This document shows positions 20,246 through 23,987 of a DNA stretch of 64,000 nucleotides, piece by piece (the stretch's first letter is position 1; every line of letters starts with the position of its first letter). The position numbers and the translations under genes are program-made. The notes beneath the pieces are model-generated. The model saw only the letters and a list, made by a program, of their open reading frames with translations. It was not told the origin of the DNA and did no database searches. Source of the DNA: Halorussus salinisoli (GTDB lineage Archaea; Halobacteriota; Halobacteria; Halobacteriales; Haladaptataceae); the NCBI GenBank assembly GCA_005239435.1, contig SZNP01000004.1:496001-560000 (forward strand). Reading direction: 5' to 3'.

Positions 20246-21070
20246 ATGGTGGGGGGAGAACCTATCGACGTCCCAGATCTCGGCCTCGGCACGTACCGGA
20301 ACGACGACTGGGATCAGTGTACCGAGAGCGTACAGACGGCCCTGGAGGTGGGGTATCGACACGTAGACACCGCGGAAGCGTACGGGAACGAGGAGGCAGT
20401 CGGTGAGAGCATAGCCGCCAGTAGCATCCCGCGCGAGGACGTCTTCCTCGCGACGAAAGTCCTGCATCCGAAGTTCACCGACGACTACGCGACCGAGAGC
20501 ATCGTCCAGAACGGACGCGCCTGCTTGGAACGCCTCGGCGTCGACTCGGTGGATCTCTTTTACGGCGTCCACTGGCCAGGCGGAGAGTACGACCCTGCGG
20601 AGACCTTCGAGGCCTGTGAGCGCCTCGACGAAGAAGGAGCGTTCGACCACCTCGGCGTTTGCAACATGACCCCGGAGTTGATCGACGAGGCCCGTGACGT
20701 GTCTGACGTGCCGATTTCGGCCGTCCAGGTCGAGATGCACCCACTACTTCAGCAGGAGGAACTGCGAGAATACTGCGAGCGACACGGGATGGATCTAGTC
20801 GCCTACGCTCCGCTCGGTAACGGTCGGATGTTCGAAGTCCCCGAGTTACAGGAGATCGCCGACAAACACGGCGTGAGCGCGGCCCGAGTGAGTCTCGCCT
20901 GGTTACGGGAAAAAGGGGTGTCTTCGATTCCGAAAGCCGCGAGCGAAGACCACATCCGCGACAACTGGCAGTCGCTCGAACTGGCTCTAGACGACGAAGA
21001 CGTGCGTAAAATCGACTCGATAGACCGCGAAGAACGCCAGTACGACAACCCGTATGCGCCGGATTGGTAA
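20246..21070 (+). CDS. Aldo/keto reductase
   Basis: This 274-residue (alpha/beta)8 reductase has the AKR tetrad: Asp and Tyr in GYRHVDTAEAYGNEEAVG, Lys in FLATKVLHP and His in LFYGVHWPG. NADPH-binding end motifs are VSSIPKAASEDHIRDNWQSLELALDDEDV. It would interconvert a carbonyl and an alcohol, often on sugars. It follows the binding-protein gene by 82 bp on the same strand. Together with the FAH-type and aldolase genes it hints at sugar or sugar-acid catabolism. A TATA-like CTTTTTTC lies about 35 nt before the ATG. Confidence 0.94.
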   Translation: MVGGEPIDVPDLGLGTYRNDDWDQCTESVQTALEVGYRHVDTAEAYGNEEAVGESIAASSIPREDVFLATKVLHPKFTDDYATESIVQNGRACLERLGVDSVDLFYGVHWPGGEYDPAETFEACERLDEEGAFDHLGVCNMTPELIDEARDVSDVPISAVQVEMHPLLQQEELREYCERHGMDLVAYAPLGNGRMFEVPELQEIADKHGVSAARVSLAWLREKGVSSIPKAASEDHIRDNWQSLELALDDEDVRKIDSIDREERQYDNPYAPDW

Positions 21071-21078
21071 GCCCTCGG

Positions 21079-21100
21079 GTCGTCGGGTCAGACCGACGAC
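21079..21100 (+). terminator. Possible hairpin after the aldo/keto reductase gene
   Basis: GTCGTCGG (21079-21086) and CCGACGAC (21093-21100) form an 8-bp stem with a 6-nt loop starting 9 bp after the stop codon. No T run follows, so it may stabilise the mRNA end or be a chance pairing. The rest of 21101-21294 holds nothing recognisable. Confidence 0.3.
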
Positions 21101-21294
21101 GAGCGAGGAGTCGTGGCGGCAGTCGACCACGTTGCACTTCTCCCGAGATTGTTACTTTCCTCAGTTGTCGCTTCAACCTGCCACTGACTCTGAAACCCAT
21201 CACGGGTCGAGGGTTTCGACGGAGTCATCGTTGGTGGGTGGCACGGCCTACGTTGCGAGTGGGGACGGTACCCAGTATATGGTCTCGTAATTTG

Positions 21295-21302
21295 TCTTAC
21301 TC
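21295..21302. repeat. Left copy of 8-bp direct repeat (target-site duplication)
   Basis: TCTTACTC lies immediately outside the left inverted repeat. The identical 8 bases occur at 23300-23307, immediately outside the right inverted repeat. Eight-bp duplications are known for the ISH1 group of the IS5 family. Confidence 0.85.
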
Positions 21303-21319
21303 GGCTCTGTTGAAACCCT
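21303..21319 (+). repeat. Left terminal inverted repeat of the IS5-type unit
   Basis: GGCTCTGTTGAAACCCT is a perfect 17-bp match to the reverse complement of 23283-23299. The next ~12 bp (CTTCTTGAGACA) match the internal terminus at 22691-22719 rather than the right end. This left end therefore corresponds to the transposase 3' end of the IS. Confidence 0.88.
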
Positions 21320-21442
21320 CTTCTTGAGACAGCTATTCCAGTAGAACAGCCGGCCACTACAGAGGCGTCCCTACCATTCCTTCTTGGCCATACCATTCAA
21401 GCGAATCGAGATTCCAGTGGTACAGTAGAGTTCAAATACTTC

Positions 21443-22687
21443 ATGGTCGAGACAACCGCTGTCGTCTTGGGGGTGCTTGTCTCCTTCGCCATTGCTATCG
21501 GCGTTCGGGTTCTGGCAAACCGAACCTTGCTCCCATACACCGTTTTACTTGTCACAGTCGGATTCATGTTGTCGGTTTTTCCTCTTCAGACGTACCTCGG
21601 GTTCAACCTCGACCCCCTCTTTACGCATGACGCGATTCTGTTCATATTTCTGCCCGCGATCGTGTTCCTTGGCGCTGCGGAGATTGACCACGAGAGATTT
21701 CGACAAAATTTTCTGATCACTGTCATAACCGTTCTTGTCGGGCTCCCCGTCGCCATCACAGCGATCGGCTGGCTCGGGACGAAGCTCTTCGAAATGCCGC
21801 TGTTAATCATGCTCCTGTTCGGAGCGATGGCCTATCCGATCGATCCCGTTGCTGTCCTCTCACTGTTTGAGGAAGCGGGAGTTCCACCACGACTGGCGGT
21901 TCTTGTCGAGGGAGAGAGCCTTCTCGATGATGGTCTTGCGATCGTTGTGTTCTCGGCGTTGTTAGCACTCGTACGAGATGCTAGCCCCACGGAACTTACC
22001 GGAACGGGACTCTTCTCGTTAGACCAGGTGGGGGCGTTCGTGATCGATTTCCTCATTGTGAGTCTCGGCGGAACTCTCGTCGGAATCGGTATTGGATACG
22101 CCACGTACCGAATGCAACGGGCAACGAATGACCAAGCGAATCTTTTCATGATATCGTTCATGGCGGTCTACGGGGGTTTTTACGTCGCGGAACACGTGCT
22201 TCACGTAAGTGGCATTCTCGCCACGGTAGTTACAGGCCTCATCTTGGGGACGTTGTCCAGAAAGTACGCACTGACCGAGGAGAATCTTGAGTTTCTGGTG
22301 GGGATTTGGGAGAGCATCGTCTTCCTGCTCGAAACGATGTTGTTCGTCGCCATCGGCATCGAGGTATCGTCGAGACAAGTGCTCAGTACTCTTCCAATCG
22401 TGCTAACTACGTTAGTCCTCCTGATCGGTGTCCGTGCTGGCGTAATCTACGGAATCATGAATCTCCTGAACCAAGTGATCGAGGACCCCGTTCCCGTAAG
22501 CTACCAGCACGTTATAATCTGGGGTGGAATGCACGGCGTGATACCGATCGCCCTCGCGCTCAGTCTCGGACCGGCCATCCCCTTCGGAGGTCAGCTCAGA
22601 ACGGCGGTGTTTGGTGTTGTCGTCGCAAGCATGATCCTCCAGGGACTGTCGATAACAAGCGTGCTCGAAGCGACCGGTGTAACCTAA
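21443..22687 (+). CDS. Na+/H+ antiporter, CPA1/NhaP-like
   Basis: The 414-residue protein has about 12 membrane helices and CPA1 motifs: FIFLPAIVFLGAAEIDHERFRQNF, then AYPIDPVAVLSLFEEAGVPPRLAVLVEGESLLDDGLAIVVFSALL. Asp of PIDPVAV and the D-D of ESLLDDG are the usual ion-binding region (ESLLNDG in most members). The end AIPFGGQLRTAVFGVVVASMILQGLSI is also typical. It would export Na+ in exchange for protons. It lies alone on the plus strand inside an IS-bounded unit, with 123 bp between the left repeat and its ATG. Its base use looks less GC-rich than its neighbours, which fits transfer. Confidence 0.93.
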   Translation: MVETTAVVLGVLVSFAIAIGVRVLANRTLLPYTVLLVTVGFMLSVFPLQTYLGFNLDPLFTHDAILFIFLPAIVFLGAAEIDHERFRQNFLITVITVLVGLPVAITAIGWLGTKLFEMPLLIMLLFGAMAYPIDPVAVLSLFEEAGVPPRLAVLVEGESLLDDGLAIVVFSALLALVRDASPTELTGTGLFSLDQVGAFVIDFLIVSLGGTLVGIGIGYATYRMQRATNDQANLFMISFMAVYGGFYVAEHVLHVSGILATVVTGLILGTLSRKYALTEENLEFLVGIWESIVFLLETMLFVAIGIEVSSRQVLSTLPIVLTTLVLLIGVRAGVIYGIMNLLNQVIEDPVPVSYQHVIIWGGMHGVIPIALALSLGPAIPFGGQLRTAVFGVVVASMILQGLSITSVLEATGVT

Positions 22688-22690
22688 TCC

Positions 22691-22719
22691 GGCTCTGTTT
22701 ATATCCTCTTATTCAGACA
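22691..22719. repeat. Internal degenerate copy of the IS terminus
   Basis: This 29-bp stretch matches the left end (21303-21331) at 24 of 29 positions by direct comparison, starting GGCTCTGTT. It abuts the transposase remnant. It probably is the original 3' terminus of a deleted IS copy, so the larger unit could have arisen from two IS copies around the antiporter gene. Confidence 0.75.
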
Positions 22720-23247
22720 TGCGTTGCGGTTGATGAGCGATGGTGCGAACTGCGTATCGTGTTTTCGGGTCGTTGTAATGTGGAGATCGAAGATCGCGTT
22801 TGCTTTCGTATCGACTAAGAGCGCGACTTACAGTTGCTGAATCGTCAGTTTCGCCCGTTTCGTGTAGTGCTTCGAGGCGTGACTTCGGTCGAAGCCCGAG
22901 GCGTCGATCCCCGCAACACCGTAGGTCGGGAGCAACGAAACGGAGAGATTGAGCAACACTCGCCAGACGGCCATATCGAGTCTATCGAACGCTTTGCACA
23001 GCGTTGACGGGGCAGGAAGTTCGGTCAGGTTGATCGCATTCCGAACGCGGGGCATCTCGATGAGTTCGTCGAGGAGTGTTCGATAAGTCGTGTCCTTCCG
23101 AACTTTGAGACACATGAGAACGATGTGCTGATGGAGCGTGTAGCGTTGTTTCGAGAACTTCGAGGAGTAGCGAGCCAAAGCACGTTGTGCTAACTGAAAT
23201 GCTTCCTCGACAAATCCGAGTAACCGTGACTTCGGGAGAGTCCGCAT
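22699..23247 (-). pseudogene. Decayed IS5-family transposase
   Basis: From ATG at 23245-23247 (MRTLPKSRLLGFVEEAFQL) 139 residues are open, including YGVAGIDASGFDRSHASKHYTKRAKLTIQQL with the first catalytic Asp of the DDE set. A TAA at 22828-22830 then stops translation. The same frame continues with homologous sequence (VALLVDTKANAIFDLHITTTRKHDTQFAPSLINRNA). It then runs at about 22720 into the element terminus, so roughly the last third with the remaining catalytic residues is deleted. The encoded protein cannot be an active transposase. Confidence 0.9.
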
Positions 23248-23282
23248 TCGGTTACACTACTGTCCAAACGTGTAACTACTCA

Positions 23283-23299
23283 AGGGTTTCAACAGAGCC
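23283..23299 (-). repeat. Right terminal inverted repeat of the IS5-type unit
   Basis: AGGGTTTCAACAGAGCC is the exact reverse complement of 21303-21319. It lies 35 bp upstream of the transposase start and is followed directly by TCTTACTC (23300-23307). The 160 bp beyond that, to 23471, is AT-rich and has no credible gene. Confidence 0.88.
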
Positions 23300-23307
23300 T
23301 CTTACTC
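23300..23307. repeat. Right copy of 8-bp direct repeat (target-site duplication)
   Basis: TCTTACTC is identical to 21295-21302 and lies immediately outside the right inverted repeat. Confidence 0.85.
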
Positions 23308-23471
23308 ACACATTTTCCCTCAGCGTCGGCCTCGACGCGCAGGCAGTATTCAGATTAGCGGGAGAGTACTATCACCCACCTATATCCACTTTATAGGAAT
23401 ATTTTTAATTGTTAAAACACGATTCTTATAGCTATTCGAGTTATAGATATTATTACAAAAACGTCAGATGT

Positions 23472-23792
23472 TTACTCCGCCGGTGAGTCTTCGAGCATCG
23501 CTGCCTGCTGGGCGATGATGTCTTCCGTGGGGGCAGCTGGCGCCGTCTTCGTCTCCTCGAAGAACGCGGAGGTCCCGGCCGCGGTACGCCACATATTTAG
23601 TGCGTTGTTTACGGCCGCAAAATCGTCGGCCTCCATGAGCGCGATGCCCCACCCATCAGGTGTCCCGTCCCACCGAACGAGTTCGACACCGTCCGGCGGG
23701 AACTGCTGCTCTCGAGTGAGTTCCATGGCAATCTCGTTGCGGTCTTCGACCGGCATACTCTCGTTGACCTTCCAATACGTGAGGAACAACAT
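23472..23792 (-). CDS. DUF3303 family protein
   Basis: The 106-residue protein begins MLFLTYWKVNESMPVEDRNEIAMEL and continues FPPDGVELVRWDGTPDGWGIALMEADDFAAVNNALNMWR. This matches the small ferredoxin-like DUF3303 family (MLFMvtW.f ... G.... e.dd...l...l..W). The C-terminal ~35 residues (TKTAPAAPTEDIIAQQAAMLED) are an acidic tail. It is cytoplasmic and its function is unknown. It stands alone between the IS-borne unit and a block of exported proteins. Confidence 0.8.
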   Translation of the reverse strand: MLFLTYWKVNESMPVEDRNEIAMELTREQQFPPDGVELVRWDGTPDGWGIALMEADDFAAVNNALNMWRTAAGTSAFFEETKTAPAAPTEDIIAQQAAMLEDSPAE

Positions 23793-23987
23793 CGGTAATG
23801 AACACCCACGCTACCGAACGACGGCCTCCGCCTTCGCGTTACCCCGCGAAGATCGTTCACGGTGTGAAGAGGAACGCGACGTGGCGCGACCGGTCAGCCA
23901 GTGAGTGATATGCGTGTTCTGCATTCAGCACGCTGTTTCCGTACTCGGAGGCACAATCTCGGGGACAGTCTAACTATCTATTAGTTA

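Follow-up and report, generated by a model that had tools for sequence, protein, structure and literature searches.

Gene transfer among haloarchaea has often been described, and to our knowledge its small vehicles have rarely been identified. Within the IS5 family, elements of the ISH1 subgroup duplicate 8 bp of their target. In the passages of the literature concerned, transporter IS (tIS) are introduced as IS derivatives with passenger genes (PMC9330008), the IS5 elements of Ralstonia are given lengths of 850–1200 nt (PMC7371123), and MITEs are described in Haloquadratum (PMC3119063).

Here, a 1997-bp segment (21303–23299) of a 64-kb window (the whole stretch of DNA analysed) from a Halorussus-group genome is interpreted with a probability of about 0.87 as a transposase-defective, gene-carrying member of a tIS-like haloarchaeal clade of the IS5 family, with a Na+/H+ antiporter gene as its cargo. 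Members of this clade resemble tIS in holding one transposase gene and passengers between a single pair of IS ends and in duplicating the target. They differ in that passengers look like the rule, with 69 distinct slots among 74 duplication-bounded copies, and in that none of 14 pairs with transposase sides 96–98% identical has the same cargo. Short of evidence for a dedicated exchange process, the clade is best seen as a variant of the transporter-IS idea and not as a category of its own. Terminal inverted repeats and a match to the IS5 model NF033579 (half length and below the cut-off) are shared with the IS5 family (ISHla2-like), and a duplication of 8 bp, the length also made by the ISH1 subgroup, is present in 74 of 149 clade copies. 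In contrast to the 850–1200 nt given in the cited passage for Ralstonia, clade elements reach 5124 bp. Like a composite transposon, the window unit has IS-derived ends around a gene, but it is devoid of a second IS copy and its left side consists of an end of ~65 bp only. Six transposase-less, duplication-bounded elements liken the clade to MITEs, and the window unit is likewise non-autonomous; unlike MITEs, it keeps part of the transposase gene and a full-length host-type gene.

The family-wide cargo slot is a more surprising result than the antiporter unit itself, and a whole clade carrying varied cargo is beyond what the preliminary description of this DNA could see. A single transposase family seems to carry diverse genes from species to species, as single genes or short groups for redox proteins, methyltransferases, transporters and signalling proteins. 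The annotation records examined name the transposase and not the unit, so the carried genes look like ordinary neighbours. The ends and duplication of the clade allow genes of recent arrival to be catalogued, and with near-identical members that differ in cargo, the acquisition of passengers by an IS becomes directly testable. A literature search conducted outside ISfinder found no paper describing the cargo of this clade, and an earlier description is possible.

The antiporter unit

Positions refer to the 64-kb window, and G and L numbers denote the genomes compared and the transposase-family loci, respectively. The unit and its immediate borders are composed as follows.

21295–21302, no strand: left copy of the target duplication TCTTACTC, identical to 23300–23307
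21303–21319, plus strand: left terminal inverted repeat, 17 bp
21303–21368, plus strand: left-end module of ~60–65 bp, common to family members, inner limit approximate
21369–22690, plus strand: cargo slot, with limits taken from antiporter homology in genomes without IS ends
21443–22687, plus strand: CPA1 (NhaP-type) Na+/H+ antiporter gene, 414 aa, intact
22691–22720, plus strand: inner (third) left terminus, ~30 bp, in the orientation of the outer left end
22724–23299, minus strand: right part of the IS with the right end and the N-terminal transposase portion, together the 576 bp up to the right end
22828–23247, minus strand: truncated IS5 transposase ORF, 139 aa, 84% identity to family member L012 over its length
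23283–23299, minus strand: right terminal inverted repeat, 17 bp
23300–23307, no strand: right copy of the target duplication TCTTACTC

The perfect 17-bp terminal inverted repeats and identical flanking octamers noted in the preliminary description were confirmed, the two arms being 100% complementary and the sole perfect pair among the nine inverted repeats listed for 20800–23800. The intact NhaP-type antiporter gene was recovered as well (PF00999, 5.9e-53 in a profile search) and sits as a passenger between the IS ends at 21303 and 23299, with the duplication outside both; its reading as cargo inside an IS5-type unit is supported by the family ends and the 8-bp duplication. The transposase ORF had rightly been called defective. 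It matches NF033579, the NCBIfam model of the IS5 family, over positions 32–132 of 289 (2.1e-19, below the whole-protein cut-off). Similarity to full copies spans 22724–23299 at the DNA level, and at the protein level a residual similarity is left over 175 of 273 residues, which indicates that the C-terminal part is gone; with this part missing, the unit does not qualify as one with a functional transposase. The third terminus, also seen before, begins at 22691 and resembles the left end at 71% over 49 nt, with 3 mismatches in the first 20 nt.

Matches to the left-end module, covering query positions 9–74 or less, occur in many haloarchaeal genomes. The slot limits follow from genomes without IS ends, in which antiporter homology starts at 21364 (G017) or 21382 (G353) and stops at 22690–22692.

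No empty TCTTACTC site for the window insertion was found in 17 other genomes of the genus. The right flank gave only short matches there (105 bp or less), and the left-flank matches cover an aldo/keto reductase gene up to about query position 827 of 1049. The ~220 bp adjoining the insertion on the left are unmatched except for 63 bp (21226–21288), which are 81% identical to a stretch on another contig (C4) of the same genome. This stretch looks by eye like PQQ-repeat coding sequence and was rejected as an empty site; the unit may thus occupy a remnant of such a gene.

Antiporter DNA is rare, being found over most of its length at 84% identity or more in 5 of 392 order-level genomes, the window genome included. 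A search for the whole unit elsewhere, proposed in the preliminary description, came back empty, as both ends are present only in the window copy among these five genomes. The outcome named in the preliminary description as refuting, the same gene order with the antiporter in relatives devoid of the repeats, was not encountered: the four other genomes show other contexts, and two of the four, both of the Halorussus group, have kept the left IS end or its remnant attached to the antiporter. The match to G027 (96%) begins precisely at the left terminus, 21303, and ends at 22691; that to G012 (92%) spans 21317–22718 and includes a left end and a trace of the inner terminus, both degenerate. In G017 and G353 the match is confined to the antiporter gene. 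The G012 site is unoccupied in G026, G017 and G000 (the window's own genome), and the G027 site in G014. The insert in G027 extends ~60 bp past the left end and ~170 bp past the antiporter, and neither G027 nor G012 has a right end or a visible duplication, so neither represents the whole window unit at another location. G027 was rejected as an intact second copy, since it lacks a right end and its insert neither starts nor stops at the IS ends.

The antiporter gene is unbroken in G027, G012 and G353 and split into two pieces in G017. Judged from dN/dS values of 0.27 (G027), 0.18 (G012) and 0.22 (G353) against the window gene, the antiporter is under purifying selection. The earlier idea of a transporter IS that spreads a salt-stress gene holds in so far as the cargo lies on an IS; the claim of present spreading is limited by the rarity of the antiporter DNA and the decay of the sister copies.

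The transposase family and its cargo

A search at E of at most 1e-80 placed transposase relatives in 150 of 392 order-level genomes, belonging to 62 of 95 genera; a scan of viral contigs yielded none. Most annotated relatives listed are named "IS5 family transposase", and one plasmid copy is annotated as ISHla2 family. In total, 249 loci returned by similarity searches were taken, including 80 stretches chosen from listed family places; once duplicates, incomplete copies and those below 60% identity had been discarded, 149 distinct full-length transposase copies remained. Most of the other transposase copies listed show no internal stop.

A duplication was called when a left end (3 mismatches or fewer out of 17) was followed by the same octamer as stands before the right end. 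Of the 149 copies, 74 have both ends with such an 8-bp duplication, exact in 73 and with one mismatch in one, compared with 29 of 21608 when another copy's octamer was used as a control (one mismatch allowed). The 75 copies without a matching duplication include 18 with less than 3 kb of downstream sequence and 55 with a left end (at most 2 mismatches) minus the octamer; six copies belong to both groups and eight to neither. Additionally, 274 end pairs 150–7000 bp apart were collected from the sampled loci and the window, repeat fetches included. Identical flanking octamers were found at 86 distinct places after removal of repeats, and octamers taken 20 bp further out agreed in 0 of 274. A full transposase lies within 79 of the 86 places, a partial one in one (the window unit) and none in six. 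ISHla2-like copies of 1193 bp (L216, L217, L220 and L224–L226) have both ends and no duplication. Three of the 1193-bp ISHla2-like copies share the same sequence beyond the left end.

The 74 duplication-bounded elements measure 1160–5124 bp (median 1572.5), and none is shorter than 1160 bp. A possible cargo-less form, with a candidate left end of L063 at 950 bp, was rejected on account of 3 mismatches and the absence of an octamer. By eye, the right end, the transposase gene, typically about 15 bp past its stop, and the last ~60–65 bp at the left are alike across elements, and the sequence between these constant parts is unrelated from one element to the next; it is this segment between the transposase gene and the left end that accounts for the range of lengths. 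Among the 74 elements, 69 slots are distinct, and any slot similarity was detected in 32 of 2701 pairs, over less than 100 nt in 22 of those 32. A search for co-varying inner inverted motifs at the slot borders gave a weak result, with a same-element score of 6.13 against 5.67 across elements (6 of 5000 permutations as high, five identical copies dropped beforehand, relatedness not controlled).

The longest ORF exceeds that of shuffled sequence in 47 of the 69 distinct slots. The 95 slot ORFs chosen for annotation fall into 84 blastp clusters; 88 were scanned against Pfam, 50 singly and 38 together, and the seven left unscanned are identical or more than 92% identical to others. Singly scanned ORFs gave at least one non-transposase domain at or above the cut-off in 21 of 74 elements. 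These domains comprise thioredoxin, TehB-like methyltransferase, maltose acetyltransferase, redoxin, SnoaL, O-methyltransferase, the RibD C-terminal domain, DUF1801, DUF7344, a PLP-dependent enzyme, GNAT with SpoIIAA-like, two histidine kinases, BAT, HalOD1, alpha/beta hydrolase with HTH_10, periplasmic binding protein with flavoprotein, formate/nitrite transporter with TrkA_C, MATE with CNNM, a GST-glyoxalase-HxlR-DoxX group and amine oxidase (a marginal match). An HD-domain match in the L183 slot is below the cut-off, and another transposase is the only recognised domain in three slots (L102, L060 and L197). Among the 38 ORFs scanned together, matches were limited to two (DUF7534 and a borderline TatC). 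Judged by eye, small membrane proteins or lipoproteins are encoded in many short slots, and the shortest may be geneless. In L173 (4019 bp, exact duplication) the cargo comprises GST, glyoxalase, DoxX and a regulator of the HxlR type, which may form a detoxification group.

The six transposase-less elements with family ends and duplication measure 354–1353 bp:

L218:4364–5716: nested element, 1353 bp, exact 8-bp duplication, with a 307-aa ORF without Pfam match
L139:5935–6288: short MITE-like element bounded by a duplication
L059:1196–1557: short MITE-like element bounded by a duplication
L137:2836–3233: short MITE-like element bounded by a duplication
L233:5811–6430: short MITE-like element bounded by a duplication
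L233:4207–4853: short MITE-like element bounded by a duplication

Cargo turnover and movement of whole elements

Cargo turnover was followed in 124 copies with both ends (74 with the duplication), whose first 870 bp were compared pairwise. Where the transposase sides are at least 99.5% identical, the cargo is the same in 31 pairs and different in one; the 31 pairs represent six groups only, with as many as 21 coming from a group of seven 1193-bp copies, and the differing pairs are likewise non-independent. The corresponding counts are one same and one different at 98–99.5%, none and 14 at 96–98%, and one and 105 at 93–96%.

The one differing pair at 99.5% or above, L090 from Haloferax larsenii and L179 from Halorussus halophilus, would illustrate replacement of the slot: over the first 939 bases the two mismatch at positions 316 and 427 alone, their 60-bp left ends are identical and their slots are unrelated. 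The same pattern is seen in L062 and L174 (97%, left ends 98% alike). The pairs L105/L107 and L107/L218 have transposase sides 99.3% and 97.9% alike and different left ends, L105 being without duplication, and fit the capture of a new left end; both routes, slot replacement and new-left-end capture, may exist. It is unlikely, on our assessment, that the slot is truly exchangeable in the sense that the constant modules persist and the DNA between them is swapped in one go through a dedicated process, in which the transposase might act at inner sites. If it were, one IS lineage would successively carry unrelated genes. The pair L090/L179 is the sharpest case for such a slot and the best place to study cargo replacement.

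Whole elements have moved. The 1304-bp element L141 in the Halorussus-group genome G021, with a 90-aa cargo ORF, has flanks that abut in G015 at a single GAATCTCC, an exact empty site for the complete element from right end through transposase and cargo to left end. This 1304-bp element occurs in Halogranum rubrum (L061), G318 (L140) and G021 within three different octamers, with transposase and slot 100% identical among the copies. L194 and L195, copies from a single genome, have two octamers between them. The flanks of the L145 element lie close together in G017, where the intergenic sequence is too diverged for an octamer to be read. In G093, two 1471-bp copies (L198 and L199) show exchanged octamers, ATTCGATA/TTATAACC and the reverse, which suggests recombination between copies.

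Probable origin of the window unit

The clade transposase is taken to recognise two ends, the right end beside its own gene and the ~60–65-bp left end; the DNA between them would move along and the 8-bp target duplication would be made. The window unit would have been inserted as one piece. Its inner ~30-bp terminus probably stems from a time when a second family member was located within or next to an antiporter-carrying one, and the nearer transposase and right end may then have come to serve the outer left end, via transposition or recombination between the two transposase genes. Such a switch would leave the antiporter flanked by two left ends, one outer and one inner, as in the window. 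Growth from two IS copies, as suggested in the preliminary description, would fit the inner terminus and may have taken place. Two or more left ends of the same orientation are in reach in 21 of the 149 copies; in L223 the inner one, at 1422, looks full and the duplication lies at the outer one, at 1983, and L100 also has two left ends, the inner a weak match. In L218, the nested 1353-bp element listed above is a further example of one family element lodged inside another.

The inner left terminus in direct orientation and the loss of the transposase C-terminus at 22724 would also be left by a hybrid assembled in place. In that case an antiporter-carrying element would have occupied the TCTTACTC site, a second member would have entered next to the antiporter, and an event of recombination or deletion between the two transposase genes would have removed the first element's own transposase, the original outer duplication being kept, so that the present combination never transposed as such. 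Recombination between copies is suggested by the exchanged octamers of L198 and L199. However, the degenerate trace of the inner terminus beside the antiporter in G012, at another site, makes the arrangement seem older than the window insertion, and L223, with L100 at its weaker inner match, likewise pairs two left ends with an outer duplication; we consider assembly in place a tenable but somewhat unlikely history. A composite transposon, of which two full IS copies once surrounded the antiporter and the left one has worn away, would explain two left ends of the same orientation. It is improbable, given that the IS on the left amounts to ~65 bp, as in the 74 duplication-bounded members, that G027 has the same short left end, and that neither a second transposase copy nor a right end was found left of the antiporter in the window. 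Two unrelated IS remnants flanking an ordinary antiporter gene, with octamers that match by chance, could be imagined from the broken transposase and from antiporter homologues without IS ends (G017 and G353), but the octamer controls (0 of 274 and 29 of 21608), the junction of left end and antiporter in G027, which falls at the same base, and the family-wide cargo render such a coincidence extremely improbable.

The favoured reading remains an inserted, gene-carrying member of the clade, with the ends and the duplication observed in the window and, for the clade, family-wide cargo, an exact empty site of one other member (L141) and the same element at different sites across genomes. The slot could be mostly neutral filler picked up accidentally, with cargo genes as hitchhikers of no benefit to element or host. 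This is a possible reading, though the less probable one: only 6 of 17 slots below 400 bp have an ORF longer than in shuffles, 53 of 74 elements are without a non-transposase Pfam domain above the cut-off among singly scanned ORFs, and a transposase is all that is recognised in L102, L060 and L197, but the longest ORF exceeds the shuffles in 41 of 52 slots of at least 400 bp, and the 21 domain-bearing elements and the antiporter dN/dS of 0.18–0.27 also argue against filler.

As a transposase-defective member, the window unit would now need a family transposase in trans. Relatives of the transposase, which the preliminary description had advised looking for in the window's own genome, are indeed present there, one of them with an exact duplication and methyltransferase cargo. 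This element, L274 on contig C10, measures 1569 bp, is flanked by ATACGAAG and carries a TehB-like methyltransferase that is also found in L099 of Halostella pelagica (93% aa). On contig C3 of the same genome, L275:793–2545 has family ends with no transposase between them, adjoins a truncated family copy and contains an ORF that looks by eye like an ArsR-type regulator.
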